NCBI GenBank assembly: GCA_017417585.1
Contig: JAFPYX010000012.1
Span: 1 to 64,000 of the forward strand
Reading direction: 5' to 3'
Length of the DNA: 64,000 bases
Source: Victivallales bacterium
GTDB taxonomy: Bacteria > Verrucomicrobiota > Lentisphaeria > Oligosphaerales > Oligosphaeraceae
The notes under the pieces were generated by a model. It did no database searches. It was not told where the DNA came from and saw only the letters and a list, made by a program, of their open reading frames with translations. Each line of letters begins with the position of its first letter. The stretch's first letter is position 1. The position numbers and the translations under genes are program-made. Of the stretch, positions 4,814-38,405 are shown one piece after another.

Positions 4814-4820
4814 CCAGGAA

Positions 4821-5183: not shown

Positions 5184-5329
5184 GACAGAATGCAGCGAGA
5201 AACGATATTTTCAGAACCAGTTTGCCAGAACAGTAATGGAGAACAAAAGCCGTCGGGAAAAGGGCATATATAAATAGTGGCCGAGACTGCTGCAGCATTG
5301 CCTCGCAGGGTCGGCCTGCTTTGAAAGAC

Positions 5330-5404
5330 TGGAGGCGTGGATCGGATTCGGACCGATGAATAAAGGTTTTGCAGACCTTCGCCTTACCACTTGGCTACCA
5401 CGCC
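5330..5404 (-). tRNA. tRNA-Cys (GCA)
   Basis: On the minus strand the acceptor arm GGCGTGG pairs with CCACGCC. The anticodon loop CTGCAAA carries GCA in an AAGGT/ACCTT stem, and the T arm is ATCGG-TCCGAAT-CCGAT. U73, the cysteine identity base, and an encoded CCA are present. It is 75 nt long. Confidence 0.95.
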
Positions 5405-5469
5405 TTCTTATTTGGGGAATTAGATATACTTTACACCACAAAATGAATTTTGCAATTCTTCCGCACAAA

Positions 5470-6180
5470 TTAAAATTGCGCTTCCGCCTCTTGCGGACGC
5501 GGCTCCTCCCGACGTCCCTCGACCACAATCACCGCCTCGCCCTTGGCCTTCTCGTCAAACTGCGGTGCCAGCTCGCTCAGGCGACCGCGCTTGACACGCT
5601 GGAACTGCTTGGTGAGTTCCAAACAGACGGCGGCGCGGCGGTCGCCATAGACCTCCAGCGCCTCCTGGAGCAGCTTGCCGATGCGGAAGGGCGACTCGTA
5701 GAAGATCAGCGTGTGGCGGCTCTCGGCGTCCTCCTCCAGAAAGGCACGCCGATGGCCCGGCTTCCGCGGAGGGAAGCCCTTGAAGGTGTAGCTGGAGGGC
5801 GGCAGTCCGGAGAGCAGCAGCGCCACGGTTGCCGCGCTGGCTCCGGGGATGACCTCCAGTTCATGGCCGGCCGCCAATGCCGCGACCACCGCCGGGTAGC
5901 CGGGGTCGCTGACCAGCGGATACCCCGCATCGCTGCACAGCCCCACGCGCTTGCCCTCGTCGAGCCACGCGACGATTTTCGCGGCCATCGCGTGCTCGTT
6001 GTGCTCGTGGTTCGCCACATAGAGCTTCGGGCGCTCGATGCCCAGCAAGGACACCAGGCTGCCAGTGTGGCGCGTGTCCTCGCAGCAGAGGATGTCCAGC
6101 GTAGGGAGCGTCTGCTTCAGGCGTTCCGTGGCGTCTCCAAGGTTGCCGATCGGCGTGGCGATGAGGGTCAATGTGGACAT
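5470..6180 (-). CDS. rsmI: 16S rRNA (cytidine1402-2'-O)-methyltransferase RsmI
   Basis: RsmI uses S-adenosylmethionine to methylate the 2'-OH of C1402 in the decoding centre of 16S rRNA. The 236-residue protein has all the family landmarks in order: ATPIGNLGDAT (8-18), CCEDTRHTGSL, ANHEHNEH, LCSDAGYPLVSDPGY, VIPGASAATVALLLSGLP, and FKGFPPRKPGHRR. The motif normally DAGTP reads DAGYP, a mild deviation. It is slightly short at the C-terminus compared with the E. coli enzyme. Its start overlaps the end of the membrane-protein gene by 13 bp. The tRNA-Cys gene follows downstream on the same strand. Confidence 0.93.
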   Translation of the reverse strand: MSTLTLIATPIGNLGDATERLKQTLPTLDILCCEDTRHTGSLVSLLGIERPKLYVANHEHNEHAMAAKIVAWLDEGKRVGLCSDAGYPLVSDPGYPAVVAALAAGHELEVIPGASAATVALLLSGLPPSSYTFKGFPPRKPGHRRAFLEEDAESRHTLIFYESPFRIGKLLQEALEVYGDRRAAVCLELTKQFQRVKRGRLSELAPQFDEKAKGEAVIVVEGRREEPRPQEAEAQF

Positions 6181-6860
6181 GGGCGGTTGGCCGTATGCCG
6201 GAAGAGCAGCACGGCGTGCAAGACGATGAAGAGATAAAAGCCGAGTACCAGCAACTTCTGCTGGCAGGGCCCATAGCAGAGCAGCTGCTTCTTGGCCGCC
6301 AGGTCACGCATGCCACTCAGCACCAGCATGACAATCAGCGCGACAGCACCCCAGGAGAAATTCACTGCGCGGGAAGCGAAGCGACTCGCCGGCGAAGTGA
6401 TGCACAGGGGTATCGCATGACCCAGGCCGCCCAGCGCGATGAAGGTGGAATAATTGTGCCAGTCGGGGTTGCAGTCATAGGGGATCAGCCCGATCATCGC
6501 AAGCCCCAGGCCGCCCATGAGCCCGAAGGCCGCCAGCAGGCAGGCTCGGATGCGCTGAAACCATGTGACCGCAGGACGGGTCGCAAAGTCCCACCCCCGC
6601 AGCAGGAAATATAACGCGGTGCCAAACCCGGCCACCACCAACGCCGAATTGAAGAACAGCCAGGAGGCGACGGTGTTCGGCTGACCGTCCGGCAGACGAA
6701 TCAGCCCAAGTGCGCTCAGGTACTGGTCATACCACACATACGGCTTTGCATAGGCCACCATGCTGAGCAGGAATGCCATCGGAACATAGACGCCCACGTC
6801 CAGCAACAGCCAGGCGAAGCGCCGCAGAAGCTTGTCCGATGGGGCTTTCATTTCAGGCAC
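6168..6860 (-). CDS. Polytopic membrane protein (DUF998-like)
   Basis: The 230-residue protein has about six hydrophobic helices separated by short loops, with the sequence YDQYLSALGLIRLPDGQPN after the first helix and NSALVVAGFGTALYFLLRGW in the second-third helix region. The layout (an ALG motif in the first outer loop, then an N-S pattern) resembles DUF998/Frag1-like integral membrane proteins. This assignment is tentative and no activity is known. The gene ends within the start of rsmI (13-bp overlap) and lies 51 bp downstream of pheT, so it is probably transcribed with both. Confidence 0.6.
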   Translation of the reverse strand: MPEMKAPSDKLLRRFAWLLLDVGVYVPMAFLLSMVAYAKPYVWYDQYLSALGLIRLPDGQPNTVASWLFFNSALVVAGFGTALYFLLRGWDFATRPAVTWFQRIRACLLAAFGLMGGLGLAMIGLIPYDCNPDWHNYSTFIALGGLGHAIPLCITSPASRFASRAVNFSWGAVALIVMLVLSGMRDLAAKKQLLCYGPCQQKLLVLGFYLFIVLHAVLLFRHTANRPCPH

Positions 6861-6911
6861 CTGCGTTCAAACACCATGGATGCCGTGCAGCCAGCCGAGG
6901 CCGAGTTCACG

Positions 6912-9314
6912 CTACCGCAATTCGACGCCGAGCTTCTTGACCAGGCCCTGGCGGAGCTTCTCCTGGAGCTGGTTCACCTCGTCGTCGGTGAAGGTCCTGG
7001 CGGGGTCCTGGTAGGTGATGGTATATGCCATCGACTGCTTGTCCGCGCCGAGCTTCTGCGCATCGGCAAAGAGATCGAAGAGCTCGACCTTCACAACGCC
7101 GGGGATCTTCAGACTCTTGATCGCCTCGGTGACCTGCAAGTTCGTGAGATTCGCGGGCGCCAGGAACGAGATGTCGCGCTCCACACCGGGGAATTGCGGC
7201 AAAGCCACATATTTCTTGGAGGGATGCGGCGCGGCATAGACGGCCTCCAGGTCAATGAGCGCCACATAGAGCTGATGGCGCATGCGGAAGCCCTTGGTCA
7301 GCGCAGGAACGACCGCGCCGAAGACCGCCAGCTCGCGCTTGTTGCGTGCGGTGATCTTCGCGCAGACTCCCTTCTGGAAGGCCGGGTGGTCAGCGGCCTC
7401 GCAGCGGTAGAACTCCGCCAGGCCATTGGCGTCCAGGAAGCCCTCCAAAATGCCCTTCAGCGTGTAGAAATCCGCCTCCTCGGTCTTCTCCTTGCCGAAG
7501 CGCTCCGGATGACGGCGGCCGCTGACCGCGATGCCGATCTGGAGCTTTTCGGCGGGTGCGCCATTCTCCATCTGGAAGACACGCCCCAGCTCGAAGAGCG
7601 CAAGGTCATGCTGGTTGTGCGAGACATTGTGGTGCACGACCGCCAGCAGCCCCGGCAGCATGGTCGGGCGCAGGAACGCCGTATCCGCGGAGATGGGGTT
7701 CGAGACCTTCAGCAGGTCGTCGGCGGTGAGCGTCGTGCCCGCCAGACATTGCGCCTCGGACCACATTGTGTAGTTCATGATTTCGTCCAGCCCCAGGGAG
7801 AGCAGCTTCGCGCGGGCATTCTCCTGCGGGAAGTACTTGTCCTCCTTGGCGGAGCCGCCCAGCGCGGCGACTGGCGTGGCCTCGGGAATCGCGTCCAGCC
7901 CCATCATCTGCGCGACCTCCTCGGCGAGGTCCACGGGCGCATGGAGGTCGAAGCGCCACCATGGCGTGGCAACGGTGAAGGAATCGCCTTCCTGCGCCGT
8001 GGTCTGGATGCCGCGGCGCGCCAGGAGCCCGACCACCTCGTCGGTGGAGAGCTTCAGCCCCAGCAGGTCGTTGATTCGGTTGGCGGAGGCGGTGATCGCC
8101 TCGCTCTGCCAGGGGCGCGGATAGCAGTCGATCGCCTCACCGAGCTGCTCTGCACCGGCCAGTTCGCAAAGTAGGCTTGCGGCGCGTGCGCTGGCCAACG
8201 CGGTGGTTTCGGGAGAGACGCCGCGCTCGTAGGTGTAGCTGGAGTCGGTGGCCTTGTTGAGGGCGCGGCTGGAGAGGCGGATGTTCGTGCGGTCGAAGGC
8301 GGCGGCCTCCAGCAGCACCGTGGTGGTGTTTTCGGTGATCATCGAGTTCTCGCCGCCCATGATGCCCGCCAGCGCCACGCCCTTCTCCGCATCCGCGATC
8401 AGCAGGTTCTCCGGGGTGAGCTTCAGCTTCGTGCCGTCCAGCGTGACGATCTCCTCGCCGTCATTCGCACGGCGCACGACAATCTGGTGCCCGGCCAGTT
8501 GACTCAGGTCAAAGGCGTGCAGCGGCTGGCCGTATTCGAGCATGATGTAGTTGGTGATGTCCACCACGTTGTTGATGGAGCGAAGGCCCACGGCCTCCAG
8601 GCGCTTCTTCATCCACTCCGGCGAAGGACCGACCTTGATGTTCGCGAAGACTCGGCCGATGTAGCGGCTGCAGAACTCCGGAGCGTCAATGCGGATGGAC
8701 GCGTAGTCGGAAGATTTCACCGCCGAATTGACCTTCACGGGCGTTTCGGGGTAGCGCAACGCATTGCCAGTCAGCGCGGAGATCTCGCGTGCGATGCCGA
8801 TGTGCGAGAGCCAGTCGGGGCGGTTCGGGGTCACTTCCCAGTCGATCACCGTGTCGCATTCGAAGAGTTCGCGGACGGACTTGCCCAGCGGCGTGTCCGG
8901 CGGCAGGATCAGCAGACCGTTGTGGTCTTCGGAAAGGCCGAGCTCCTTGGCGGAGCACATCATCCCGCAGGAGTCCACGCCGCGCAGCTTCGACTTCTTG
9001 ATCACGAAGCCGCCGCCAAAGTCCGTGCCGATGGTCGCCAGCGGGACGCGGCAGCCCGCGTCGCAGTTCGGCGCGCCGCAGACAATCTGCAGGGGTTCGC
9101 CAGTGCCGGGATCCACGGTGCACACGCTCATGTGGTCCGAGTTCGGGTGCGGGACGCGGGTGAGGATCTGGGCGACAATCACGCCCTCCGGGATGGTTCC
9201 CGTGGTCTCGATGCTCTCCGGCTCCAGCCCGGCGGAAGTCAGATGGTCGGCAAGTTCCTGGGCGCTCCACGAAATGTCGGTGTAGTCGCGCAGCCAATTC
9301 AAGGAAGTTTTCAT
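6912..9314 (-). CDS. pheT: Phenylalanyl-tRNA synthetase beta subunit
   Basis: PheT is the large subunit of the alpha2-beta2 enzyme that charges tRNA-Phe. The 800-residue length is normal. Seen in order: the start MKTSLNWLRDYTDI, the EMAP-II-like tRNA-binding domain (about 40-150, HPNSDHMSVCTVDPG, QIVCGAPNC), the B3/B4 editing domain (about 210-380, RYIGRVFANIKVGPSPEWMKKRL, MLEYGQPLHAFD), B5 (about 400-475), the catalytic-like domain (about 480-690) and a C-terminal anticodon-binding FDX-ACB domain (about 705-800, FPGVERDISFLAP). pheS is not adjacent, so subunit genes are separated here. A candidate promoter lies at 9384-9411. Confidence 0.97.
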   Translation of the reverse strand: MKTSLNWLRDYTDISWSAQELADHLTSAGLEPESIETTGTIPEGVIVAQILTRVPHPNSDHMSVCTVDPGTGEPLQIVCGAPNCDAGCRVPLATIGTDFGGGFVIKKSKLRGVDSCGMMCSAKELGLSEDHNGLLILPPDTPLGKSVRELFECDTVIDWEVTPNRPDWLSHIGIAREISALTGNALRYPETPVKVNSAVKSSDYASIRIDAPEFCSRYIGRVFANIKVGPSPEWMKKRLEAVGLRSINNVVDITNYIMLEYGQPLHAFDLSQLAGHQIVVRRANDGEEIVTLDGTKLKLTPENLLIADAEKGVALAGIMGGENSMITENTTTVLLEAAAFDRTNIRLSSRALNKATDSSYTYERGVSPETTALASARAASLLCELAGAEQLGEAIDCYPRPWQSEAITASANRINDLLGLKLSTDEVVGLLARRGIQTTAQEGDSFTVATPWWRFDLHAPVDLAEEVAQMMGLDAIPEATPVAALGGSAKEDKYFPQENARAKLLSLGLDEIMNYTMWSEAQCLAGTTLTADDLLKVSNPISADTAFLRPTMLPGLLAVVHHNVSHNQHDLALFELGRVFQMENGAPAEKLQIGIAVSGRRHPERFGKEKTEEADFYTLKGILEGFLDANGLAEFYRCEAADHPAFQKGVCAKITARNKRELAVFGAVVPALTKGFRMRHQLYVALIDLEAVYAAPHPSKKYVALPQFPGVERDISFLAPANLTNLQVTEAIKSLKIPGVVKVELFDLFADAQKLGADKQSMAYTITYQDPARTFTDDEVNQLQEKLRQGLVKKLGVELR

Positions 9315-9383
9315 GGATTTGGATTCGCCTTGTGGCGGGTTTTGAAAGTTATGGTGGTTTCCTGACGCAATGTGCTAATTCGT

Positions 9384-9411
9384 ACTATAAAGGCCTTTTC
9401 CAAACTCGCCG
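9384..9411 (-). promoter_or_regulatory. Candidate pheT promoter
   Basis: On the minus strand TATAGT (complement of 9384-9389) sits 16 bp after CGGCGA (9406-9411), within GGCGAGTTT...GAAA. The same layout recurs at 13648-13675 before a glycosidase gene. The -10 match is good; the -35 match to TTGACA is poor. Confidence 0.5.
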
Positions 9412-9468
9412 TGAAAAGCCCCGACAGATATTATATTGAGCCAGGTTCCATTCCAAACCATCCCGGCA

Positions 9469-10731
9469 ATGAAAACGACTCTCGCCTTCCCCGCGCTCCT
9501 TGTGCTCAGCATGACCATTCTCGCCCAATCCACGCCGCCTGCCATCTCGCCCAATCTCGCCCAGAAATTTCGTTTCGATGCGGACGGCAACTTTCGCGTG
9601 ATGCAAATCACCGACCCGCAGGGTGCCTACCCATTGGAACAGCCGGTCAAAGAGCTGATCCGGCAGGGCATCCGCAAATACCGCCCGTCGCTCATCATCC
9701 TGACCGGCGACAACACCGCCTGCTACAACCGGCATGGCGAATTCGAGCAGGCCGTCCACGAATTCATGGACATCTTCGTAGAGGAGCAGGTCCCCCACGC
9801 CATCACCTTCGGCAACCACGACTCCGAGCGCAAAGGAGCAGATTTCTACACCCGCCAAGAGCAGTATGACATCTATAAGCAAATCGGCGGCAATTATTTC
9901 GTGGACTTTGACATCCAAGAACTCTCCGGCGTGGGCAGCGGCGCCATCCCGGTTTACGCCTCCGACGGCACCGCACCGCTTTTCAACCTGATCGTGATGG
10001 ACTCCGGCGACTACCCGCCGCAGGGCGGCTACGACGGTTGCCGCACCGACCAGATCCGCTGGTACGAAGAGAATGCGGGCACTCTGCCCTGCCTCTGGTT
10101 CCAGCACATCATCGTCTGCGAGGTCAACAAGACCAACGTCCTCGTGCACATTCCCTCCCGCCCCGCCAACATCCAGCTCCTGGAAACCGAGGACACTGCG
10201 GAAGGCGACCCGGAGGGTTTCTTCAGCGAGCCGCTCAAACGCTGGATCAAGAAACTGCCAGAGACGGCAATATGGTCCGCCCCCCTTAAGCAATACATCC
10301 TTGCTGACGCCAACGCAGTCTGGGCAAATGCGCTGAAAATGTACATGATCCAGCCGGAGGGAACCGTCTGGAATGATGACGTGGCCGCCTTTGACCGCCT
10401 CGCCGAAGGCGTCGGCATCGGCGAGCTGAAGGAAAAGCCCTGCCCGCCGTCTTGGGAGGTCTATACCAACCCCGAGCACACCTATGAGGGGCGCACCCTC
10501 TACCAGAGCTGGCTCAAGATGGGCAACCTCAAGGGCGTCTATTTCGGTCACGACCACATGAACACCTTCGACGTGACCGACTGCAACGGCATCCGGCTCG
10601 GCTTCTGCAAGGCCGCCACGCTCTGCTCCTACAACGACGGCGACCCCGGCTTCCGCATCTTCGACATCCACGCCGATGCCACCTACGACACCCAAATCGT
10701 CACCGCCAGGCAACTAGGGATCATCAAGTAA
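9469..10731 (+). CDS. Secreted calcineurin-like metallophosphoesterase
   Basis: The protein (420 residues from the ATG at 9469) has a signal peptide (KTTLAFPALLVLSMTILA) and the metallophosphoesterase motif series: QITDPQ, LTGDN, FGNHDSE, a middle HII histidine, and GHDHMN near the C-terminus. These bind a two-metal centre that cleaves phosphoester bonds. The first motif, usually DxH, reads DPQ, replacing the histidine ligand with glutamine; the other ligands are intact. The overall layout resembles purple-acid-phosphatase-like (PAP29-type) phosphodiesterases. The TTG at 9436 would add 11 residues before the signal peptide, so the ATG is preferred. It diverges from pheT and converges with the following glycosidase gene. 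Confidence 0.85.
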   Translation: MKTTLAFPALLVLSMTILAQSTPPAISPNLAQKFRFDADGNFRVMQITDPQGAYPLEQPVKELIRQGIRKYRPSLIILTGDNTACYNRHGEFEQAVHEFMDIFVEEQVPHAITFGNHDSERKGADFYTRQEQYDIYKQIGGNYFVDFDIQELSGVGSGAIPVYASDGTAPLFNLIVMDSGDYPPQGGYDGCRTDQIRWYEENAGTLPCLWFQHIIVCEVNKTNVLVHIPSRPANIQLLETEDTAEGDPEGFFSEPLKRWIKKLPETAIWSAPLKQYILADANAVWANALKMYMIQPEGTVWNDDVAAFDRLAEGVGIGELKEKPCPPSWEVYTNPEHTYEGRTLYQSWLKMGNLKGVYFGHDHMNTFDVTDCNGIRLGFCKAATLCSYNDGDPGFRIFDIHADATYDTQIVTARQLGIIK

Positions 10732-10746
10732 GTCCGTATCCCCGGA

Positions 10747-13596
10747 TTATTTGTCGAAGTCACGGTCGCAATCGGCGGGAGTATATGGCACGGCGGTAAT
10801 TTGGTTGCCCCATGGTTCGCAACCATAAGCCCCCAGGACTTCGGCCTTCACCCAACCGTCCCGGCCATTCTTCGAGGCCTGGGTGCTCTCGCCGGACAGA
10901 ATCAGGGGTCCGTCTGAAAGTACCAGCGAAAAGAGCGCGCCACAGGGAGCGCCGCCGCCATCCATGCCCTTGACCACCAGTTCGTTCTCGCCCTCACGCA
11001 GGTACTTGAGGACGTCCAGGGTCCAGGCGCATTGCCATTCCTCCTGCCGCACCACCTCGTGGCCATTGATGGTGCACGTGAAATAGTCGTCCACCACGAC
11101 GGAGAGTACGGCGCTATTTATTTTTTGTAAATTGTTTATTCTAAATTTGTTACGTAAATATTCAACATCCCCGTCCGCAAGATTCTGGCCTGGATACCAG
11201 ACCCAGCTTGCCTTCTCGAAAGTCGTCGGCAGTTCGACCTTCTCGGCCAGCCGTTGCGTTGACGGGCGCTTCAAAGGCGGCGCGATGGTCTTGGCGGCAT
11301 CACGATAGATGTGGATTCCGTAGGGACCGAACTCCTCGGTGAAGGAACCATTCTCGGCAATCACATTGCGCCCTTCGCTGACGACCCGCAGTTTCGCCGG
11401 AAGCTTTCCCGTGAACGTGGCGGTGACTGGTTCGGGGGACTCGTTGAGGACAATCCAGAGGTCGTCGCCTTCTGCGGTGCGCTTCTGGCAGATGCGGATG
11501 GATTCCGCCTCGCAGGTGACTTCGCCCTCGATGGTGTCGCCCACCAGATAGCGCGAGAGCGCCTCGACTTCATGGAGATTCGCCGCCAGGTCCGCCACAA
11601 ACGGATGATCCGTCGGCACGCTCATTGTCCCCCAGTACATCAGACCGGTCGCGCCGTGGGAGATCGCCTCGTAGATCATGAAGCGCGTCTCCTCGCGGGT
11701 CGGGTAGATCATCACGCCGGACTTGTTCCACTTCCCCCAGGCGAAGCCCTGGAGGGTCATCCACAGCGGCCTGCGGCCGCGCACGACCTCGTCGCAGATG
11801 TCGGTGTATTTCCCCACGGAGGTCATCGTCTTGTCCGTGAGGTCGGAGTGTGAGTTCGGGCTGGGGATCGGGTAGATGTCCACGCCGTAGGTGTCGCAGG
11901 CATTCGCGTAGGGTCGCAGGTCTTCGGCCTTTCCGCGCGGCGCCTCGTTCAGGAAGACGGGATGGTAGGGGTCCAGCAGGCTCATCGTCTCGTAAAGGCG
12001 TTGGTAAGGCGCCACCGGCCGGCCGCTCCAGGCAGGTTCATCCGTGGAGAACCAGGCGATGGTGGAGGGATGGTTCATCGCCTCCACGATCTTTCCGGTC
12101 GGCTTCTCCAGCCAGGCGGACAATTCTTCGGGCGTGCGTTCCTTCTGCGCCTCGGAGGGCACCATCACCATCGCCAGCAGCCCGTAGTCCGCCAGCTTGT
12201 CCATCTGCGTGTAATTGCACAGTACCATGTTGAAGCCCATCTTGGCCATCATCTCTGCGGCCTCGGTGACGGAGTTCCCCTCGCCGAGATAGTTCCAGCT
12301 GCCAATCGGGAAGAAGGGTTCGCCGTCCACATACATCACGCGCCTGGAGTCGAAGGTGACCACATGCGCCCCCTCCGCCAATTGCGGCGGCGGGACCACG
12401 CGGAAATTCTTGGCGGCGGAGGCAATCACTTTCCCGTCCGCATCCAGCGCGACCGCCTCGATGGGATACTCGCCGACCTTCGCAGGCACGGCGAACTCGA
12501 AAGGCACCTCCGGAGCGCCTGGCTTCGAGAGCGTCTCGCCGTTGAAGGCAAAGCGCACTGTGGCGGCAGGAATGCTCAGGAAAGCCGCACCAGAGAACGC
12601 GCCTTGCGTGCCCGCCACGGTTGAATCATGATAGCTCCACGGGCAGTCCAGCGCAAGTTCGACCGGCAGCACCGGCGAGGTCGTCGGGACAAGCTTGATG
12701 TTGTCGAAATAAACCGTCCCGAGGTTCTTGAGCTCGCCGACGATGGTCACTTCCATGTCGCGGTCAGGCGTGAAGGTAAGGGACTTGTGCTGCCAGCTGG
12801 AGAACGAGTCCTGCCAGATTTCATTGCCGGGCAAAATGTTATCATCATCGTAGGCCGCCATGCGGAACCATGTCGCGCCCTGGATGTCCAGGAACTGTCG
12901 GTCCGTTCCGCCCTTCACGTCATACGAGAGCTTGTAGAGCTGGCCGCCTTTCACCTGGATGCCCGCCTGGGAGATCCGCGCGGTCGCCTCGGTGCCGTTA
13001 AGCTTCACCAGCTTGCCGTGCGCCTTGTCGCCAGAGTCCTCGGTCACGGCGTTCTCCAGCGTCCAGCACTTGTCGCCGGCATTGAACGAGCCGTTCTGCA
13101 ATTTCCCCGGCGTGACCTCCAGAACGGGCGCGGTGAACTCCACCTTCGAGCCCGTCTTCGCGCGGAAGACCGCGTATGGCTTGCTTCCCTGGTCGGGCAT
13201 GATTCCCGTCACCACCACATCCTGCCAGTCGCCGGTGCAGGTGAACTCCTTCAGCATGCACCAGTAGGAAGGCTCGCTGCGTTCGACATAGATGCACCCC
13301 TGGGCACCCGCCGCACCGCGAACCTTCGCCGTGAAACGGTACTCCACGCCATCTTCCATCGTGACGCCGTATTGCACCACATTTGCGTTGGCGTCCGACC
13401 GCGAAATCACCAGTCCTCTGCTGCCGTCGTCATACGAGACGACCTCGAACTCCACGCCACTCTGCGGTTCCCATGCGGCAGGCCAGGCTCCGTTGGACGC
13501 CTGCTCCGCCAGCGAGGCATTCCGCAGCAGATTATCGGCCTGGGCACAGGCACACGCGAACAATGCGGCAAGAATCGTCAAAAGGCGTTTGGACAT
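10747..13596 (-). CDS. Secreted glycosidase-like protein (TIM-barrel core with lectin-like flanks)
   Basis: The 949-residue protein starts with a signal peptide (MSKRLLTILAALFACACAQA). GGAGGAG lies 5 bases before the ATG at 13596, which is preferred to an in-frame codon 18 bp upstream. Two carbohydrate-binding-module-like jelly rolls (about 20-310; LLRNASLAEQASNGAWP and LQNGSFNAGDKCWTLEN start each) lead into a clan-GH-A-like barrel. Its features include YVDGEPFFPIGSWNY, MAKMGFNMV, the putative acid/base in WFSTDEP, and GVDIYPIP. A C-terminal galactose-binding-like domain (WVWYPGQNLADGD onward) resembles that of rhamnosidases. The family is not certain. A short AT-rich rare-codon patch (11114-11166) sits inside this last domain. 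Confidence 0.75.
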   Translation of the reverse strand: MSKRLLTILAALFACACAQADNLLRNASLAEQASNGAWPAAWEPQSGVEFEVVSYDDGSRGLVISRSDANANVVQYGVTMEDGVEYRFTAKVRGAAGAQGCIYVERSEPSYWCMLKEFTCTGDWQDVVVTGIMPDQGSKPYAVFRAKTGSKVEFTAPVLEVTPGKLQNGSFNAGDKCWTLENAVTEDSGDKAHGKLVKLNGTEATARISQAGIQVKGGQLYKLSYDVKGGTDRQFLDIQGATWFRMAAYDDDNILPGNEIWQDSFSSWQHKSLTFTPDRDMEVTIVGELKNLGTVYFDNIKLVPTTSPVLPVELALDCPWSYHDSTVAGTQGAFSGAAFLSIPAATVRFAFNGETLSKPGAPEVPFEFAVPAKVGEYPIEAVALDADGKVIASAAKNFRVVPPPQLAEGAHVVTFDSRRVMYVDGEPFFPIGSWNYLGEGNSVTEAAEMMAKMGFNMVLCNYTQMDKLADYGLLAMVMVPSEAQKERTPEELSAWLEKPTGKIVEAMNHPSTIAWFSTDEPAWSGRPVAPYQRLYETMSLLDPYHPVFLNEAPRGKAEDLRPYANACDTYGVDIYPIPSPNSHSDLTDKTMTSVGKYTDICDEVVRGRRPLWMTLQGFAWGKWNKSGVMIYPTREETRFMIYEAISHGATGLMYWGTMSVPTDHPFVADLAANLHEVEALSRYLVGDTIEGEVTCEAESIRICQKRTAEGDDLWIVLNESPEPVTATFTGKLPAKLRVVSEGRNVIAENGSFTEEFGPYGIHIYRDAAKTIAPPLKRPSTQRLAEKVELPTTFEKASWVWYPGQNLADGDVEYLRNKFRINNLQKINSAVLSVVVDDYFTCTINGHEVVRQEEWQCAWTLDVLKYLREGENELVVKGMDGGGAPCGALFSLVLSDGPLILSGESTQASKNGRDGWVKAEVLGAYGCEPWGNQITAVPYTPADCDRDFDK

Positions 13597-13647
13597 GAAT
13601 ACTCCTCCGGGCAAAAATGATTATGGGGTTGAAATGATGGCCTTCAT

Positions 13648-13675
13648 ACTATAGAGGAAATTTCAAAACTCGCCA
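13648..13675 (-). promoter_or_regulatory. Candidate promoter of the secreted glycosidase gene
   Basis: On the minus strand TATAGT (complement of 13648-13653) lies 16 bp after TGGCGA (13670-13675). The block GGCGAGTTTTGAAA is shared with the pheT upstream site, so the two genes may share a sigma factor or regulator. The 5' leader would be about 45 nt. Confidence 0.5.
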
Positions 13676-14827
13676 TCGAAATTTGCCTTTGCCTTCACTG
13701 CTGTCCGGTAAAAGTCCAATTCCCGCGGAACGTAAAAAAGTCAACGTCTGGCATTGGACCTGTCTCCGGCATCCCTGGCGGGCTGCGCGGCATCATTCCA
13801 GTCTCCCGGGCGGAGCGCCAGTGGCCTTCCGCCGGAAATCAGCCGGTTCGCAACGATGGATGGTGGGTTGCCCCCCAACCACCCGCCCTTTCAAATTTAA
13901 CGCACGGTGCCGAGGGATGCAAGCCCGTTCCCGAAAAGTCATCAAAGTCATTCAGAGACCAAGAAAGCCTGTGCTTTTCTGAGACGCGCAACAATTGTCG
14001 TAAAGCAATCTCTTTGAACGGTGAAGCAACCTTTTTGAACGGTGGGGAAACCTCTTTGAACGGCGGAAAGCCTACGATTTTTCCAATATGCAGAACAGAC
14101 TATAGTTGTTTGAACGGAAAAGCCTGTATTTTCCTAGAACGCGCCACGCCAGGGACATGGCCTGTGGCGGATTCAGGGAAACCGGCAAGCCTGACAGCGG
14201 CATTCCCGTTGTTTTCTAGGAAGATGTGGAAATCAGGCAAGTTGTCGGCGGCATTCCGGATTTTTGCCGGGCAGCGGTGTTTTGCCTTCGTCAAGATTGT
14301 GGCGGAACGAGTCGCCCTGTCTGCCATCCCATCCGCATCCAAAAACGGATTCCGCCGTAAATGGGCACGCTCCAATCCGCATTTCGGCGCATGCGTGCGT
14401 CGTGCCCTGCCCGTCACGCATGGCGTTCTGAAGTCTCCGCCGGATTCACCTAGCCACGCAGAAAACAGCGGAAGGCCGACGTCCGCCTTACTGACTTTGC
14501 GTGAAACCGCCACCAGCCTCCTCAGTCGCGGTCCGCAGGAACGTCCTGTGGCAGAACGAAGTAAATCGCTGCCTTTTGCCCTTTGTATTTTGTGGGGAAC
14601 CGACATCTGCCGGGCGGCAGTGATGCAGAATCGAAGGAACACCCTGCCGCAGATGGCACATACCCTGTTCCGTATTGCTGAAAACATCTTAAGTCACGTG
14701 AAATTCACCAATTTGGCGTTATGTTATCCATGATTTTTCCTCTTTCAGAACATTCCAAGTCCATCGGTCACGGACGGTTGTCCTCTCGTGTGCCGATTGC
14801 ATTTACCACCCACAAAATCATAACATC
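13676..14827. other. Gene-poor region of about 1.15 kb
   Basis: No ORF here is convincing. A 239-codon plus-strand frame (14014-14733) has no recognisable domain, no RBS and starts within tandem repeats; an overlapping minus-strand frame is equally long. Visible structure: three 21-bp tandem units at 14010-14072, a fourth partial unit near 14106, and a pair of related 29-bp segments at 13964-13992 and 14119-14147 (22 of 29 identical). The whole looks like decayed repeat DNA. A TTATCCATG near 14720 is only a weak DnaA-box match and is not supported by other boxes. Confidence 0.6.
14010..14072 (+). repeat. Three tandem 21-bp units
   Basis: Units at 14010-14030, 14031-14051 and 14052-14072 share the core TTTGAACGG followed by a purine-rich stretch and AAC. 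A partial unit precedes them (end at 14009) and the core TTTGAACGG recurs at 14109-14117. The 21-bp period equals two DNA turns, as in iterons or protein-binding arrays. Confidence 0.75.
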
Positions 14828-15061
14828 ATGGACAAGAAAGAAATCTTCGCAGACGGCATTGGGCAGATCCATTTCGCGGGCGGCATGGTCCGTTTTGACC
14901 TCGTGACCCTCCAGCCCGCCGAAGAGGGCAAGGCGCCTGTCCCCGAATCCCACACTCGTCTCATCATGCCCCCGCAGGGCTTCCTCGCCGCCTTCAACTC
15001 CATGCAGCAGCTCATCGACAAGCTCGTCGAAGCAGGCGTGCTGAAGAAAAATCAGCAATAA
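14828..15061 (+). CDS. Small conserved-looking protein of unknown function
   Basis: The 77-residue protein is not recognised with confidence. It reads like a compact folded protein: MDKKEIFADGIGQIHFAGGM, then a strand VRFDLVTLQP, a Pro/Glu loop, RLIMPPQGFLAAFNSM and a C-terminal amphipathic helix QLIDKLVEAGVLKK. The strand-loop-helix pattern with MPPQGF recalls DUF3467-type small proteins. There is no signal peptide. It directly precedes the O-heptosyltransferase gene (148 bp) on the same strand and could be its accessory. A heptad repeat tract begins inside its last codons and overlaps the stop. Confidence 0.65.
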   Translation: MDKKEIFADGIGQIHFAGGMVRFDLVTLQPAEEGKAPVPESHTRLIMPPQGFLAAFNSMQQLIDKLVEAGVLKKNQQ

Positions 15062-15084
15062 GCAATTGGCAATTGGCAATTAAC
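15050..15084 (+). repeat. Heptanucleotide tract (AATTGGC type)
   Basis: Five 7-bp units in register: AATCAGC, AATAAGC, AATTGGC twice, then AATTAAC. The tract starts inside the 3' end of the 77-residue gene and includes its stop codon. Confidence 0.8.
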
Positions 15085-15208
15085 AATCGCAGTGTTCTCC
15101 ACGGCGGCACCTAACGGACTGGTGAAATCCGAGACCAGCGGCCTTGGGTTTTAAGCCCAATTTGGTGTCTTCATGGTAGCTAGTGTTCATCTTTCAACTT
15201 TCGCGACA

Positions 15209-16561
15209 ATGCCGAACTTTACCCTCAACCCCGACTTCGGCGCGACCGCCGGCAACTACAGCATCAACATTGCGCCTGTCGCGCCTGTGCCCGCATCGTC
15301 GTCTGCTGTGCCGGCGAAATCCACGGGCGACCCGGACTTGGCGCCGGGGCAGAAGCGCCCCGAAGGTGCGCAGAAGTCGATCTACGGCGAAATTCCGCAG
15401 ATTCCCGTGCTGGACGCCGTGGAGGGCATCAAGTTCGACTTCAACCACGGCATCCGCATCCTCTTCCCGCGCAACGAGAAGACCTACCATGTCACCTTCA
15501 TGGACGTCGACACGGGGGTCATCCTCTTCAGCAACGACACCCAGCCAGGCGCCTTCATCACCTCCGTCAAGAAGTTCTACATCAAGTTCCGCCTGATCAT
15601 CCACGAGAAGGGAAACGACAAGCCGATCTTCCAGCACGACATGGACCTCAAGAACCAGGAGGTAATGGTCCAGCTGCCCGTGGGAACCATCGGCGACTCG
15701 ATCGGTTGGTTCTCCTACGTCGAGCGCTTCCAGAAGAAGCACCAGTGCAAGCTCGTCTGCGTGATGACGCCGTGGATCGCCACACTGGTCAAGGACCAGT
15801 ACCCCGACATCACCTTCATCCCCCCGGAGGAGACGGTGAACTACAAGCCCTACGCCTCCTACTACATGGGACTCTTCTTCCGGGGCGACGTGGACAACCA
15901 GCCCATCGACTTCCGATACATCGGACTCCACCGAACCGCAGGCTACATCCTCGGGCTCGACGGCACTGACCTGGACGACCTCCCGCCGCGCTTCAACCTC
16001 TCCGCCCCGCGGCAAATCAAGGAGAAGTACGTCTGCATCGCGGCGCAGTCCTCCAGCCAGGCGAAGTACTGGAACAACCCCTTCGGCTGGATGGCAGTCG
16101 TCAAGTTCCTCAAGGACAACGGGTACCGGGTGCTGTGCATCGACAAGGAGAAGGTCCACGGCATCGGCCTGCACTGGAACTACATCCCCTACGGTGCGGA
16201 GGACTTCACCGGCGACCGCCCCCTCCAGGAGCGCGTGGACCTCATCAAGGACACGGATTTCTTCATCGGGCTCTCCAGCGGGCTGTCGTGGGTGGCCTGG
16301 GGCTGCCAGGTGCCAGTCGTGATGATTTCGGGCTTCACCCATCCCACCAACGAGTTCCACACGCCCTACCGCATCATCAACTACCACACCTGCCACTCCT
16401 GCTGGAACGACATGCGAGAGAACTTCGACCATTTCGACTTCCTCTGGTGTCCGCGCCACAAGGGGGACGAACGGCAGTTCGAATGCACCCGCCTCATCTC
16501 CCCCGAGCAGGTCATCGCCACCATCAAGAAAATCCCCACCTTCCGTCCTGCGGAAGGCTGA
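15209..16561 (+). CDS. TibC/BAHT-type protein O-heptosyltransferase
   Basis: The protein (450 residues from the ATG at 15209) matches the autotransporter strand-loop-strand O-heptosyltransferase family (TibC, AAH, BAHTCr), which transfers heptose from an ADP-activated donor to serines of autotransporter passengers in the cytoplasm. Visible are IGDSIGWFSYVERFQKKH, the GT-B sugar-nucleotide half (KYVCIAAQSSSQAKYWNNP, ITDGL-like FFIGLSSGLSWVAWG), and four C-terminal cysteines (395, 398, 414, 426) in the CHSC, WCP and ECTR contexts. These match the iron-binding cysteines of TibC. No autotransporter acceptor is in this window. The ATG at 15209 is preferred over a GTG at 15173 because family proteins start near it. 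Confidence 0.87.
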   Translation: MPNFTLNPDFGATAGNYSINIAPVAPVPASSSAVPAKSTGDPDLAPGQKRPEGAQKSIYGEIPQIPVLDAVEGIKFDFNHGIRILFPRNEKTYHVTFMDVDTGVILFSNDTQPGAFITSVKKFYIKFRLIIHEKGNDKPIFQHDMDLKNQEVMVQLPVGTIGDSIGWFSYVERFQKKHQCKLVCVMTPWIATLVKDQYPDITFIPPEETVNYKPYASYYMGLFFRGDVDNQPIDFRYIGLHRTAGYILGLDGTDLDDLPPRFNLSAPRQIKEKYVCIAAQSSSQAKYWNNPFGWMAVVKFLKDNGYRVLCIDKEKVHGIGLHWNYIPYGAEDFTGDRPLQERVDLIKDTDFFIGLSSGLSWVAWGCQVPVVMISGFTHPTNEFHTPYRIINYHTCHSCWNDMRENFDHFDFLWCPRHKGDERQFECTRLISPEQVIATIKKIPTFRPAEG

Positions 16562-16607
16562 GAGCCTTTCTGTGTGCGTAATTGCCTTGCGCGAGTGGTG
16601 CCTCGCA

Positions 16608-16643
16608 CAGGTTTCCAGTAGTTCCAGAGGTTCCAGATTTTCC
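16608..16643 (+). repeat. Four 9-bp tandem units
   Basis: CAGGTTTCC, AGTAGTTCC, AGAGGTTCC and AGATTTTCC follow in perfect 9-bp register in the 269-bp gap before the acetyltransferase gene. The rest of that gap holds only a short GGGGGC/GCCCCC hairpin at 16797-16813. Confidence 0.65.
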
Positions 16644-16830
16644 GAGACTTCTCGAACCGAAAGGGAATCTGGTATAACCTTTGTTATCGCATCACGAGTT
16701 GTCAGCACCGGCCTCAATGCTGGCGCGGAAGACAAAATCGATGTCTTTTGAGACGGAACTTTGGCGGTAGTGCGCTCATTCGTCAATCGCAACCCCGGGG
16801 GCTTTTCGCCCCCTTTCCCCTCCCTTCCCC

Positions 16831-17445
16831 ATGGAAGAACGCCCCGAAGTCCCCGTCAGCTGCCTGTTCCAGGGTTGCTACAACCCCGCCTACGAGGCGA
16901 GAATCCGCGAAGGGAAGGCTCTATGCCATCAATACAACCAACTTTGCCCTAATGACTTGGAGGGACAGCGCAAAATCCTCGCAAGGCTGCTGGGCAAAAT
17001 GGGTCGCGAAACGGTCATCACCCCGCCATTCTGGTGCGACTATGGCTACAACATCGAGGTGGGGGACTACTTCTATTCCAACCATAACCTGATTGTCACC
17101 GACGGCGTAAAGGTCTCCTTCGGCGACCATGTCTTCATCGCGCCAAACTGCACCTTCACCACCGCCGAGCATCCCATCGACCCGGAGCAGCGTGCCGCAG
17201 GGCTGGAAATCGCCAAGCCCATTGCCGTCGGCAACAACGTCTGGATTGGAACTGGCACCATCGTGCTGGCTGGCGTGACCATCGGGGACAACACGGTGGT
17301 CGGCGCAGGAAGCGTGGTGACAAGGGACCTCCCCGCCAACGTCGTGGCAATGGGCGTGCCCTGCCGTGCCAAACGCGCCATCACCGCCGCAGACCGAACC
17401 CGCTACCCCTTCCACGAGAGCGTGGCAGCCCAATGGCGGCCTTGA
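16831..17445 (+). CDS. Sugar O-acetyltransferase (Maa/LacA/NodL family)
   Basis: The 204-residue protein is a left-handed beta-helix acyltransferase that moves acetyl from acetyl-CoA to a sugar hydroxyl. An N-terminal Maa domain (LARLLGKMG, PPFWCDYGYNIEVGDYFYSNHN) precedes hexapeptide repeats. The catalytic histidine is in FTTAEHPIDPEQR, and the C-terminal IGDNTVVGAGSVVTRDLPANVVAMGVP closes the fold. The acceptor is unknown; the nearby O-heptosyltransferase raises the possibility of glycan decoration. A six-pair GC hairpin (16797-16813) ends 17 nt before the ATG and could affect expression. No other RBS is visible. Confidence 0.9.
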   Translation: MEERPEVPVSCLFQGCYNPAYEARIREGKALCHQYNQLCPNDLEGQRKILARLLGKMGRETVITPPFWCDYGYNIEVGDYFYSNHNLIVTDGVKVSFGDHVFIAPNCTFTTAEHPIDPEQRAAGLEIAKPIAVGNNVWIGTGTIVLAGVTIGDNTVVGAGSVVTRDLPANVVAMGVPCRAKRAITAADRTRYPFHESVAAQWRP

Positions 17446-20665: not shown

Positions 20666-20700
20666 ATAAACTTTAAGCTTTCAGCTTTAAGTCTTAAGCC
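20666..20700 (+). repeat. Heptanucleotide tract (TTAAGCT type) in a gene-free gap
   Basis: Units ATAAACT, TTAAGCT, TTCAGCT, TTAAGTC and TTAAGCC follow in a 7-bp register, with weaker units back to about 20617. The TAAGCCCAATT that ends the tract also occurs near 15150. The rest of 20439-20815 shows no gene. Confidence 0.7.
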
Positions 20701-24150: not shown

Positions 24151-24182
24151 GCGGGCGTGGAACGGCAGACACGAGACATTTT

Positions 24183-24210
24183 AACCTTTAAACTTTAACC
24201 TTTAAACTTT
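24183..24210 (+). repeat. Heptanucleotide tract (AACCTTT/AAACTTT) before a start codon
   Basis: Four exact 7-bp units alternate AACCTTT and AAACTTT and end 4 nt before the ATG at 24215. No Shine-Dalgarno sequence is present between tract and start. Confidence 0.85.
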
Positions 24211-24214
24211 GTCT

Positions 24215-24991
24215 ATGGAATTCAGCATCAGTGCACAGCCTCCGCAATTTGAGGCCATCGCGGCCGCGGGGTTCAAATACGTCGATCCGTTTTTCAGCAG
24301 CGGTTTCTCGCAATGCAACTCCGAGGAGGAATTCCAGTCGCTGGGCGACCTGCTCAAGCGCACTGGCCTGACCGTCTGGGGCTCGGCTGGGCTCTTCCCG
24401 AGGACTTTTCATCTGGTGGGACCGGAGGCAAAATTGGAGGAAGCCGTGGAGTTCATCCGCATAGGCATGAAGCGCGCAGCGGCCTACGGCACGAAGGCGG
24501 TTGTCTTTGGCTCAGGGGATGCCAGACGAATTCCGGCGGGCTTCGACCCGCGCGAAGCATACGCGCAGCTGGTCGCGCTGGGCAAGGCGATTGCTCCAAT
24601 TGCACAGGAGCATGGCGTGAAGATCGCGGTCGAGAACCTCAACTGCAACGAGACCAACACCTTGACCAGCCTTGCCAGCACCCTGAAATATGTTCAGGAT
24701 GTCGGGCATCCGGCTTTCCAGCTGCTCATCGACATCTTCCATTTCCAGCGCAGCGACCGCGACCTGCTCGGCTTGGCGAACGCCGCGCCGCATTTCATCC
24801 ACGCGCACATCGCCACCTACGAAAACCGCAAGTTCCCCGGCCTGGAGGAGTGCGACTTCTCCGCGAATCTCCATGAACTCAAACGCCTCGGCTATGAAGG
24901 AGCCATCACCATCGAGGCCAAAGGCGACTGGACGGTCGAATGCCTCCGCCATGCCCTGGAAACCCTCCGCGATGCCTGGGAAACGGCCTAG
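24215..24991 (+). CDS. Sugar phosphate isomerase/epimerase-like TIM-barrel protein
   Basis: The 258-residue protein belongs to the xylose-isomerase-like TIM-barrel superfamily. The order of metal-ligand strands is visible: VFGSGDARRIP, VKIAVENLNCNETN (glutamate ligand), FQLLIDIFHFQRS (aspartate and histidine), FIHAHIATYENRKFPG (histidine) and GAITIEAKGD (final glutamate). It is cytoplasmic and probably isomerises or epimerises a keto-sugar released by the neighbouring glycosidases. The ATG at 24215 is used; a TTG two codons upstream lies in the repeat tract. It sits between the GH42-like and GH2 genes on one strand. Confidence 0.85.
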   Translation: MEFSISAQPPQFEAIAAAGFKYVDPFFSSGFSQCNSEEEFQSLGDLLKRTGLTVWGSAGLFPRTFHLVGPEAKLEEAVEFIRIGMKRAAAYGTKAVVFGSGDARRIPAGFDPREAYAQLVALGKAIAPIAQEHGVKIAVENLNCNETNTLTSLASTLKYVQDVGHPAFQLLIDIFHFQRSDRDLLGLANAAPHFIHAHIATYENRKFPGLEECDFSANLHELKRLGYEGAITIEAKGDWTVECLRHALETLRDAWETA

Positions 24992-25003: not shown

Positions 25004-25045
25004 CTTCAGACTTTCAAACTTTAACCTTTACCCTTTAAACTTTTA
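25004..25045 (+). repeat. Heptanucleotide tract (ACTTTAA type) before the GH2 gene
   Basis: Six 7-bp units, CTTCAGA, CTTTCAA, ACTTTAA, CCTTTAC, CCTTTAA and ACTTTTA, keep register to within 8 nt of the ATG at 25054. It is the same type of tract as at 24183 and 31561. Confidence 0.85.
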
Positions 25046-25053
25046 ACGGATTT

Positions 25054-28804: not shown

Positions 28805-29263
28805 ATGAAACTTATCTGCCAGAACAAACGCGCCTACCACGACTACACGGTGCTGGAGAAAATCCAGGCGGGCATCGCCCTGACGGGCACGGAGGTGAAG
28901 TCCTGCCGAGGCGGCACGATGTCGCTGGCGCAGTCCTACGTGCATTTCGAGCCTCGCGCGGCGAAACTGGTGAACGCGAACATCGCGACCTACGCGATGG
29001 GCAGCTACAACAACCACGTGCCCACCCGCCAGCGGCAGCTGCTGCTGCACAAGGTGGAGATCCGACGGCTCAAGCGCGCGGTGGAGGCCAAAGGCCTCAC
29101 TGTGATTCCGCTTCAGGCCTACTTCGACGACAAAGGTCATGTAAAGCTCGACCTGGGACTCTGCCGCGGCAAGAATGTCCAGGACAAGCGCGAAGACCTC
29201 AAGGAGAAGATCGACCGGCGCGAAACCGACCGACTCATGAAAAGTCGAAAATTCAAAGGGTAA
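28805..29263 (+). CDS. smpB: SsrA-binding protein SmpB
   Basis: SmpB binds tmRNA and delivers it to stalled ribosomes for trans-translation. The 152-residue protein has all conserved blocks: NKRAYHDYTVLEKIQAGIALTGTEVKSCRGG, AQSYVHF, NIATYAMGSYNNHVPTRQRQLLLHKVEI, GLTVIPLQAYFDDKGHVKLDLGLCRGKN and the basic C-terminal tail DKREDLKEKIDRRETDRLMK. The tmRNA gene is not in this window. The last codons already follow the 7-bp register of the repeat array that begins here. It stands directly downstream of higBA. Confidence 0.96.
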   Translation: MKLICQNKRAYHDYTVLEKIQAGIALTGTEVKSCRGGTMSLAQSYVHFEPRAAKLVNANIATYAMGSYNNHVPTRQRQLLLHKVEIRRLKRAVEAKGLTVIPLQAYFDDKGHVKLDLGLCRGKNVQDKREDLKEKIDRRETDRLMKSRKFKG

Positions 29264-29498
29264 AATCGAAAGGCCAGAGGCCAGAGGCCAGAGGCTAGAG
29301 GTTAAAGGTGAGAGGTCAGAGGTGAGAGGTCAAAGGTGAGAGGTCAGAGGTGAGAGGTCACAGCCATCAGGTCACAGGTCACAGGTCTCAGGCCTCAGGC
29401 CCCAGGTCACAGGACTCAGGTCACATGTCACAGCCATCAGGTCACAGGTCTCAGGCCTCAGGCCCCAGGTAAAACTTTAAATTTTAAACTTGATATAG
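29243..29498 (+). repeat. Large degenerate heptanucleotide array between smpB and queA
   Basis: About 36 consecutive 7-bp units without a phase break. From 29271 the units are AGGCCAG (three times), AGGCTAG and alternating AGGTGAG/AGGTCAG. These are followed by AGGTCAC, AGGTCTC, AGGCCTC and AGGCCCC types, with AGCCATC recurring twice at a 70-bp interval. From 29467 the units become ACTTTAA-like, and the register ends exactly at the queA ATG (29499-29501). Four weaker units extend back into the smpB 3' end from 29243. Confidence 0.95.
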
Positions 29499-30551
29499 AT
29501 GTTGGTTTCCGATTTCGATTTTGAATTGCCGAAGGAGCTGATCGCGCAGTATCCGACGAAGGAGCGCGATGCCGCGCAGATGCTCGTGATGGAACGCGCC
29601 ACCGGCAAGCGCCTTTTCACGGACTTCCGGCACTTTGCGGACTACCTCCAGGCAGGCGACTGCCTGGTGCTCAACGACACCCGCGTGATTCCCGCACGCC
29701 TTTGGGGGCACCGTCCGCAGACCGGCGGCAAGGTGCAGGTCTTCATGCTGGAAAGCCGAGGCGGGCGCACCTGGCAGGCGTTTCTGAAGCCCGGACGGCG
29801 GCTGGCGATTGGCGACCAAGTGGTCATCGATGGCGCGGGAGTCGCCCTGACCGTTCGCGAGAAAGCGCCAGACGGTGCCTGTCTGGTGGAGTTCGACTTC
29901 GACGACGTGCTGTCCATCTTGGAGGAATTCGGCAAGACGCCGCTGCCGCCCTACATCAACCGCGCTCCAGAGGAGTCGGACAAGGAGGATTACCAGACCG
30001 TCTATGCCGAGCATCCCGGCTCGGTGGCCTGCCCGACGGCGGGCTTGCACATGACCGAGGCGATTCTCGCACAGCTGCAGGCCAAGGGCGTGCGGATTGC
30101 GCGGCTCACGCTGCATGTCGGCGCAGGGACCTTCCGGCCCGTCGAGGCCGCCACCGTGGAGGAGCACGTGATGCACGAGGAGCGCTATACGCTCTCCGAG
30201 GAGGCCGCCGCGGTCATCAACTCCACGCACCGCTCTGGTGGAATGGTCTTCTGCATGGGAACGACTTCCGTGCGAACCATCGAGACCTGCGCAATCCCCG
30301 GCACCCACGAGGTCCGACCGGGTTCCGGACGCACCAGCATTTTCCTCTACCCGCCCAAGCAGCCGCAGGTCGCCGACGGGCTCCTGACCAACTCCCACCT
30401 CCCGCAGTCCACCCTCATTATGCTGGTATGCTGTTTCGCGGGCCACGACAACACGATGGACGCCTACCGCGAGGCCATCGCGCGGCGGCTGCGCTTCTTC
30501 AGCTATGGCGACTGCATGCTCCTGCTTCCGCCGGGAAGATATTTGACTTAA
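29499..30551 (+). CDS. queA: S-adenosylmethionine:tRNA ribosyltransferase-isomerase QueA
   Basis: QueA transfers and isomerises the ribosyl moiety of S-adenosylmethionine to 7-aminomethyl-7-deazaguanine in tRNA, giving epoxyqueuosine. The 350-residue protein shows DFDFELPKELIAQYP, LVLNDTRVIPARLWG, TPLPPYI, YQTVYAEHPGSVACPTAGLHMTE, LHVGAGTFRPV, HVMHEERY, TTSVRTIE, TSIFLYPP and LLTNSHLPQSTLIMLVCCFAG, all family blocks. The start codon is the last three bases of the heptad array, with no Shine-Dalgarno sequence between. The queuosine pathway partners (tgt, queG) are not adjacent. Confidence 0.97.
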   Translation: MLVSDFDFELPKELIAQYPTKERDAAQMLVMERATGKRLFTDFRHFADYLQAGDCLVLNDTRVIPARLWGHRPQTGGKVQVFMLESRGGRTWQAFLKPGRRLAIGDQVVIDGAGVALTVREKAPDGACLVEFDFDDVLSILEEFGKTPLPPYINRAPEESDKEDYQTVYAEHPGSVACPTAGLHMTEAILAQLQAKGVRIARLTLHVGAGTFRPVEAATVEEHVMHEERYTLSEEAAAVINSTHRSGGMVFCMGTTSVRTIETCAIPGTHEVRPGSGRTSIFLYPPKQPQVADGLLTNSHLPQSTLIMLVCCFAGHDNTMDAYREAIARRLRFFSYGDCMLLLPPGRYLT

Positions 30552-31560: not shown

Positions 31561-31595
31561 GGCACCTTTAACCTTGAAACTTGAAACTGAAAGTG
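31561..31595 (+). repeat. Heptanucleotide tract overlapping the DUF177 start
   Basis: Units GGCACCT, TTAACCT, TGAAACT twice and GAAAGTG keep a 7-bp register. The likely TTG start codon (31581) lies within the tract, so the repeat encodes the first residues. Confidence 0.8.
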
Positions 31596-38380: not shown

Positions 38381-38405
38381 CATTCCCCATTCCCCATTCC
38401 TCATT
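38378..38405 (+). repeat. Heptanucleotide tract (CCCCATT type) before the U32 gene
   Basis: Units CATCATT, CCCCATT twice and CCTCATT run in register to 5 nt before the ATG at 38411. It abuts the hairpin repeat. No Shine-Dalgarno sequence is present. Confidence 0.8.

Follow-up and report, generated by a model that had tools for sequence, protein, structure and literature searches.

What occupies the gap between smpB and queA in this Victivallales-type genome, and does it belong to these two genes in particular? The original prediction, made within the 64,000-nucleotide stretch of DNA analysed here (the window), described a degenerate heptanucleotide array of 36 units, held in register from the last codons of smpB to the queA start codon and not explained by coding. 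The features of the locus are as follows.

28805 to 29263, plus strand: smpB (ORF list), 152 amino acids, with its final residues (...KSRKFKG*) encoded within the 7-bp register.
29243 to 29270, plus strand: four weak units (AGTCGAA, AATTCAA, AGGGTAA and AATCGAA) that keep the core's register but are poorly conserved; they consist mostly of smpB codons and overlap the stop codon of that gene.
29271 to 29473, plus strand: core array of 29 AGGNNNN-type units (AGGCCAG, AGGTGAG, AGGTCAC, AGGTCTC, AGGCCTC, AGGCCCC and off-type AGCCATC) in exact register, with a sub-block lag-7 identity of 0.71-0.81.
29362 to 29470, plus strand: higher-order repeat AGCCATC-AGGTCAC-(AGGTCAC)-AGGTCTC-AGGCCTC-AGGCCCC, two copies 70 bp apart, the second one AGGTCAC unit shorter.
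29474 to 29498, plus strand: AT-rich start-proximal units ACTTTAA, ATTTTAA and ACTTGAT followed by ATAG, a G-poor leader without a Shine-Dalgarno sequence; the 18 bases preceding the ATG are identical in the same-genus genome G003.
29499 to 30551, plus strand: queA (ORF list), 350 amino acids, the downstream gene, present in 54 of 60 relatives.

The gap itself (29264-29498) is built from 7-bp units. Across 29243-29498, identity was 0.703 at lag 7, 0.698 at lag 14 and 0.66 at lag 21, with harmonics continuing at 28, 35 and 42, and did not exceed 0.31 at lags not divisible by 7; 2000 first-order shuffles gave a mean of 0.264 (sd 0.031) and a maximum of 0.39. The original prediction had staked the array on this periodicity, and autocorrelation finds it strongly. 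Parsing from 29271 gave 32 consecutive units up to 29494 with zero phase slip, in the order AGGCCAG (three times), AGGCTAG, AGGTTAA, alternating AGGTGAG and AGGTCAG(A), AGGTCAC, AGCCATC, AGGTCAC..., AGGCCTC, AGGCCCC, ..., AGGTAAA, ACTTTAA, ATTTTAA, ACTTGAT and finally ATAG plus ATG. Tandem Repeats Finder called periods of 7, 14, 21 and 28 on the same region, and AGCCATC returns after exactly 70 bp (29362 and 29432), which bears out the predicted higher-order repeat. The count and the two ends need adjustment. About 32 units are good and about four (29243-29270) are weak, rather than 36 being equal; the start within smpB holds as regards register, but similarity is low there (lag-7 identity of 0.44 over 29231-29262); and the register reaches 29494, but the last four bases before the ATG form no recognisable unit.

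The smpB-queA array has many counterparts: this Victivallales-type (Lentisphaeria) genome carries heptanucleotide arrays dispersed across many intergenic places and numbering from dozens to a few hundred, so that the array is not a feature specific to queA. Sibling arrays in the window are as follows.

15050 to 15086, plus strand: GCAATTG array overlapping a called stop codon.
20667 to 20697, no strand assigned: weak TAAGCTT/AAACTTT array in a divergent gap.
24180 to 24209, plus strand: TTTAACC/TTTAAAC array, 5 bp from the next gene's called start.
25013 to 25046, plus strand: ACTTTAA/CCTTTAC array, 7 bp from the next gene's called start.
31564 to 31587, plus strand: short CTTTAAC/CTTGAAA array at a called gene start.
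38381 to 38404, plus strand: CATTCCC array, degenerate in the sister genome (CATTCCTCATTATTA).

Tandem Repeats Finder also reported 21-bp tandem repeats in the window at 14003-14063 (2.9 copies) and 24943-24984 (2.0 copies). Beyond the window, we surveyed 0.97 Mb of its genome (3.26 Mb over 103 contigs; contamination estimated at 8.5%), taking contigs mostly in numerical order, and detected 56 lag-7 arrays, a density that is somewhat overestimated because some sampled regions had been chosen for their pattern-search matches. Shuffled sequences contained no arrays at any period, and, among periods that are not multiples of 3 or 7, periods 2, 4, 5, 8, 10, 11, 13, 16, 17, 19 and 20 gave 0-2 arrays each in the same 0.97 Mb. 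The same-genus genome G003 also had a period-7 excess: a slightly lower threshold gave 64 arrays in 0.77 Mb. In approximately 1.27 Mb of QueA-neighbourhood DNA from mixed bacteria, 7 was the commonest period (25 arrays), with 14 of these arrays located in a single Uhrbacteria locus (L084) and three belonging to the sister genome itself. That locus, from an Uhrbacteria metagenome-assembled genome (MAG), carries no fewer than 14 heptamer arrays within 21 kb (3795-17208), mostly as inverted pairs such as AGAATTT/AAATTCT and GGTGCGT/ACGCACC. Long, near-perfect heptamer arrays were seen in Paenibacillus (L045:2408-2606, L046:7281-7421 and L038:3-97; GATACAG, TAGTGAG and GTGATGA), and at the start of contig C4 of G000 (L138:330-560) AGGT-type heptamers form a higher-order repeat of about 86 bp in which some units are not 7 bp long.

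An assembly or binning artefact is so unlikely that we give it scarcely any weight. It would fit the observation that 18 of 103 sampled contig starts in G000 and G003 fall within a 7-bp array (other periods gave 0-3, except 14), but coherent syntenic genes flank the arrays, which recur in separate same-genus genomes and follow gene-linked rules, and the separately assembled G003 is likewise 7-bp-periodic between smpB and queA. The contig breaks indicate repetitiveness, not invention: because contigs start in heptamer arrays, we take short-read assembly to break there, and, because unusually many contigs end in them, the arrays also limit short-read assembly of these genomes.

For comparison between species we used G003 as the sister, a separately assembled genome of the same genus with 90-91% QueA identity; the closest named QueA matches were the Victivallales bacterium MAG RGIG8156 from water-buffalo rumen (90%) and Lentisphaeria bacterium UBA1724 (75%). 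Among 80 orthologous gaps, arrays were present in both species in seven, only in the window's genome in seven, only in the sister in seven and in neither in 59, which is co-occurrence above chance (odds ratio 8.4, Fisher p = 0.002). Where both species have an array, the unit type usually differs (for example, CATTCCA in one species, and AATTCGT, AGGTCTC and CTAACCT in the other). Because orthologous gaps mostly carry another unit type, whole arrays have been replaced and not just lengthened in 7-nt steps, and we conclude that arrays turn over fast between sister species, the gaps differing in both length and unit type in this comparison of two species. The smpB-queA gap of G003 is also 7-bp-periodic and consists of 77 bp of ACTTTAA/AATTGAG units against 238 bp in the window, by the gene finder's boundaries. 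The original prediction had slippage in unit number altering the queA leader in 7-nt steps; what the sister comparison mainly shows is instead replacement of unit type, with the gap going from 238 to 77 bp and the ATG-adjacent 18 bases unchanged. Neighbouring genera have only short, non-repeat spacers between smpB and queA. The SmpB C terminus, read by eye, is ...KSRKFKG* in the window and ...KSRKFKV* in G003, in which the stop codon lies inside the array, against ...RAMKR* or ...RAIKGA* in array-free relatives. Because array-bearing and array-free genomes differ in this manner, the last SmpB residues and the stop codon were probably supplied by the array. Further, two more distant genomes have independent heptamer arrays in the queA leader, made of GGCTTAT (L106) and ACAGACC (L116).

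The arrays draw on a small set of units. The 123 arrays with a perfect tandem pair in the two species use 55 of 1172 possible unit classes, led by AACCTCT (27 arrays), ACCTGAG (15), AATGAGG (11), AATTAGC, AAAGGTT and ACCTCTC (10 each), AATTACG (8) and AAACTTT (7). The commonest units contain GG at most, and many lack it; TAACTGA is absent from the 45 most frequent of the 55 tandem unit classes. The lexicon is common within the genus and different among genera. Each of the genus's four genomes contains the sequence CTAACCTCTAACCTCTAACC, which occurs once elsewhere in the order. A pattern search across the order located AATTRSS arrays in four genera of the family, and the string-reversed AATTRSS control was abundant in genus g9 (three genomes) and also occurred in G015 of genus g3; as the control is itself abundant in g9, lexicons differ by genus. 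CTAACCN arrays, mostly CTAACCA, are abundant in G013 and G008; in the whole genome of G013 a four-unit CTAACCN pattern matched 182 times (the matches listed being CTAACCA), far above any other genome in the phylum sample. Within the window's genome, the off-type unit CAGCCATCAGGT recurs inside AGGT arrays at five further places, spread over four contigs, with no occurrence of the reversed control. AGCCATC is embedded in AGGTCNC arrays on contigs C4 (two places), C6, C29 and C46, and a list of its occurrences within AGGT-type arrays adds C78 to these contigs. Its recurrence in separate arrays suggests that array segments may be copied between loci.

The placement of arrays relative to genes is not random. 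Array density was 0.53 per kb in co-directional gaps, 0.23 in convergent gaps and 0.07 in divergent gaps (Fisher p = 0.01 by gap counts), and arrays often abut start or stop codons. With gene starts taken from a simple hexamer-score gene finder, 38.5% of arrays lay within 12 bp of a start, against 22% under random placement and a maximum of 35% in 2000 simulations; the frequency at stops was as expected (24% against 22%) in the random-placement simulation. The arrays follow an edge-linked polarity, strict at starts, being C-rich on the coding strand before a start and G-rich after a stop. Within 15 bp of a start, the coding strand was G-poor in all 43 arrays, compared with 68% (383/566) of array-free 40-nt flanks, arrays that share a lexicon not being fully independent observations. 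Within 15 bp of a stop, it was G-rich in 24 of 32 arrays, compared with 42% (199/478) of array-free flanks of the same length, so that polarity at stops, with its eight exceptions, is weaker than at starts, and it has no clear selective reason. Within 30 bp of any gene edge, the G-rich strand pointed outward in 80 arrays and inward in 10. Wherever a gap held arrays of both signs, the G-rich one preceded the C-rich one (12/12), and internal splits of single long arrays gave nine G-to-C and three C-to-G switches. Units with equal G and C were oriented at starts and less clearly at stops (AATTACG, 6:1 and 3:3, respectively). The smpB-queA array obeys the same polarity, with AGG-type units after smpB and ACTTTAA-type units before queA, and the change between them, described at the outset as a switch, is therefore not arbitrary. 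In the Uhrbacteria locus the G-rich arm came first in every inverted pair seen, in DNA where gene calls are too poor to give edge positions.

These observations bear on whether the arrays are neutral, that is, whether they arise by microsatellite-like slippage anywhere, are purged by selection only from coding sequence, and have no role and no constraint on polarity. That arrays are gained, lost and replaced rapidly from one sister species to the other, that units are degenerate and that lexicons are genus-specific would all suit such an expansion. It is nevertheless strained by the polarity, both in the 43 start-side arrays and in the G-then-C order, and the under-representation in divergent gaps and the reused lexicon also argue against it; we consider it unlikely. 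Stop codons in the units were rejected as the organising rule, their enrichment being modest overall (sense p = 0.0025), strongest at starts and not significant at stops. A G-quadruplex basis was likewise rejected: the units are too G-poor, and GG-poor arrays also tend outward (14:4).

We considered what the arrays might do at gene starts. None of 31 array-led starts had a 5-mer Shine-Dalgarno core, compared with 15% of other genes, and the predicted minimum free energy over positions -45 to +15 was -4.2 kcal/mol at array-led starts against -9.8 kcal/mol at others (p = 1e-7). The predicted weak structure and the missing Shine-Dalgarno sequence would fit a Shine-Dalgarno-independent leader, by analogy with the role proposed for TAACTGA repeats (PMC4679880); both properties follow partly from the G-poor composition. 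At the smpB-queA array itself, other candidates were rejected: no Rfam family matched that would indicate a structured RNA or riboswitch leader, and the window yielded tRNAs only; a single weak promoter-like match lay at the smpB end; and terminator-like matches were confined to the minus strand inside smpB.

Alternatively, the arrays could be RNA hairpin elements, acting as terminators or intercistronic spacers, with heptamer arms that are G-rich 5' and C-rich 3'. The G-then-C order is what such elements would show, clear inverted heptamer pairs exist in G008 (L209) and in the Uhrbacteria locus, and the array in the window folds better than shuffles (z of -2.5, or -1.3 for the exact gap). As a general basis this fails, since array-bearing gaps fold no better than others: the mean folding z was -0.47 in 80 array-bearing co-directional gaps and -0.75 in 150 gaps that lack arrays. 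Folding predictions leave start-side arrays unstructured, and the coding strand at the smpB-queA array has no T-tract terminator. We regard hairpins as a highly improbable explanation.

The explanation that we favour, and hold to be on balance somewhat probable, is slippage of heptamers and their copying between loci, combined with selection at gene edges, with start-side arrays serving as unstructured leaders that lack a Shine-Dalgarno sequence. First, DNA-polymerase slippage or template switching in 7-nt steps would lengthen arrays. Second, ectopic conversion would copy segments between arrays, spreading a small unit lexicon and swapping unit types in place. Third, selection would exclude arrays from coding sequence and mostly from divergent promoter regions, and would restrict their orientation, leaving a G-poor coding strand before starts and a mostly G-rich one after stops. 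Finally, start-proximal units, including ACTTTAA-ATTTTAA-ACTTGAT before queA, may act as a weakly structured 5' leader that has no Shine-Dalgarno sequence. MutS is present in the window's genome, so loss of mismatch repair is not needed, and such loss is rejected as the cause because array-rich and array-poor genomes alike have MutS. Against the favoured explanation stand the weaker polarity at stops, the partly compositional origin of the properties seen at array-led starts, and the period itself, since slippage in general does not account for exactly 7 rather than 5, 8 or 10.

A dedicated writer, such as a telomerase-like or break-healing activity that builds heptamers onto gene edges in the direction away from the gene, extending the G-rich strand 3' outward, would give a single rule for both gene ends, the G-then-C order within gaps and the replacement of unit types at orthologous gaps, and the polarity reported for the Xanthomonas and Nostoc repeats (PMC4692102) is the same. 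The many unit types, however, would require many templates, eight of 32 stop-side arrays are exceptions, and the genome gave one reverse-transcriptase match and no candidate writer. We consider this reading a long shot.

How do the arrays relate to known heptamer systems? Literature searches on heptamer repeats in Lentisphaerae or Verrucomicrobia gave nothing relevant, in keeping with the original prediction, which knew of no such description for this kind of genome, and the excerpted accounts of STRR and long simple sequence repeats (PMC4679880, PMC4692102) do not mention the Victivallales lineage. The comparison with STRR-type heptamers of heterocystous cyanobacteria proposed at the outset is apt, and there are heptamer elements in Beggiatoaceae, Xanthomonas and Geobacter as well (PMC4679880, PMC4692102, PMC2700814). 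Like STRR and long simple sequence repeats, the arrays consist of 7-bp units in tandem that hold strict register to an extent far beyond chance, and they are scattered over many intergenic places of one genome; they differ in being degenerate and mixed. Geobacter metallireducens likewise has tandem heptamers dispersed in its genome, namely four-heptamer elements (GGACCGG) and five-heptamer sites (MTYCTGA) proposed to be regulator or RNA elements, but these have fixed copy number and lie partly within genes (PMC2700814). The TAACTGA repeats of Beggiatoaceae, some cyanobacteria and Bacteroidetes resemble the arrays here in that they closely precede start codons and stand where a Shine-Dalgarno sequence would be, and a translational role has been proposed for them, some hosts having mixed heptamer types; they differ in comprising one fixed unit in near-exact copies, with no stop-side mirror rule in the excerpted account (PMC4679880).

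The closest parallels are the Xanthomonas GGGAATC and Nostoc/Anabaena GGGGA(C/T)T repeats, which, as reported in PMC4692102, belong to G-rich, G-quadruplex-capable unit families. Their coding strand is C-rich in the 50 bp preceding a start and G-rich beyond a stop, and they overlap stop codons. Like the arrays here, they are intergenic, dispersed genome-wide, mostly between aligned neighbour genes and under-represented between divergent ones, and related species keep their position and vary their length and sequence. Unlike those genomes, each with one unit family, this one has many unit types, including AT-rich ones without GG (AATTAGC, AATTACG and AAACTTT), replaces unit types at orthologous gaps and has commonest units with at most GG, short of the GGG or GGGG tracts able to form G-quadruplexes. 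What appears new, then, is that the polarity rule still shows in a lineage whose unit types are many and in several cases lack GG, and that orthologous gaps there have had one type replaced by another. Because one genome holds several unit types and the same gap holds different arrays in relatives, the effect of unit sequence can be told apart here from those of polarity and position, and the G-quadruplex explanation for Xanthomonas and Nostoc becomes testable because AT-rich units, too, seem to obey the polarity. In most genomes heptanucleotides outnumber every other class of longer simple sequence repeat (Mrazek et al. 2007, as described in PMC4679880 and PMC4692102), an over-representation long noted in bacteria without an accepted reason, although a polymerase-footprint slippage hypothesis is recounted in PMC4679880. 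A tentative and rather doubtful reading is that heptamer arrays of unrelated sequence obey a single edge-linked polarity in four or more distant lineages, namely Xanthomonas, Nostoc, this Victivallales family and (from a small sample) Uhrbacteria, the G-rich strand running outward, 5' to 3', from either end of the gene. On that reading, a common mutational or selective process, independent of unit sequence and of G-quadruplex capacity, would write 7-bp repeats or set their orientation with respect to gene boundaries.
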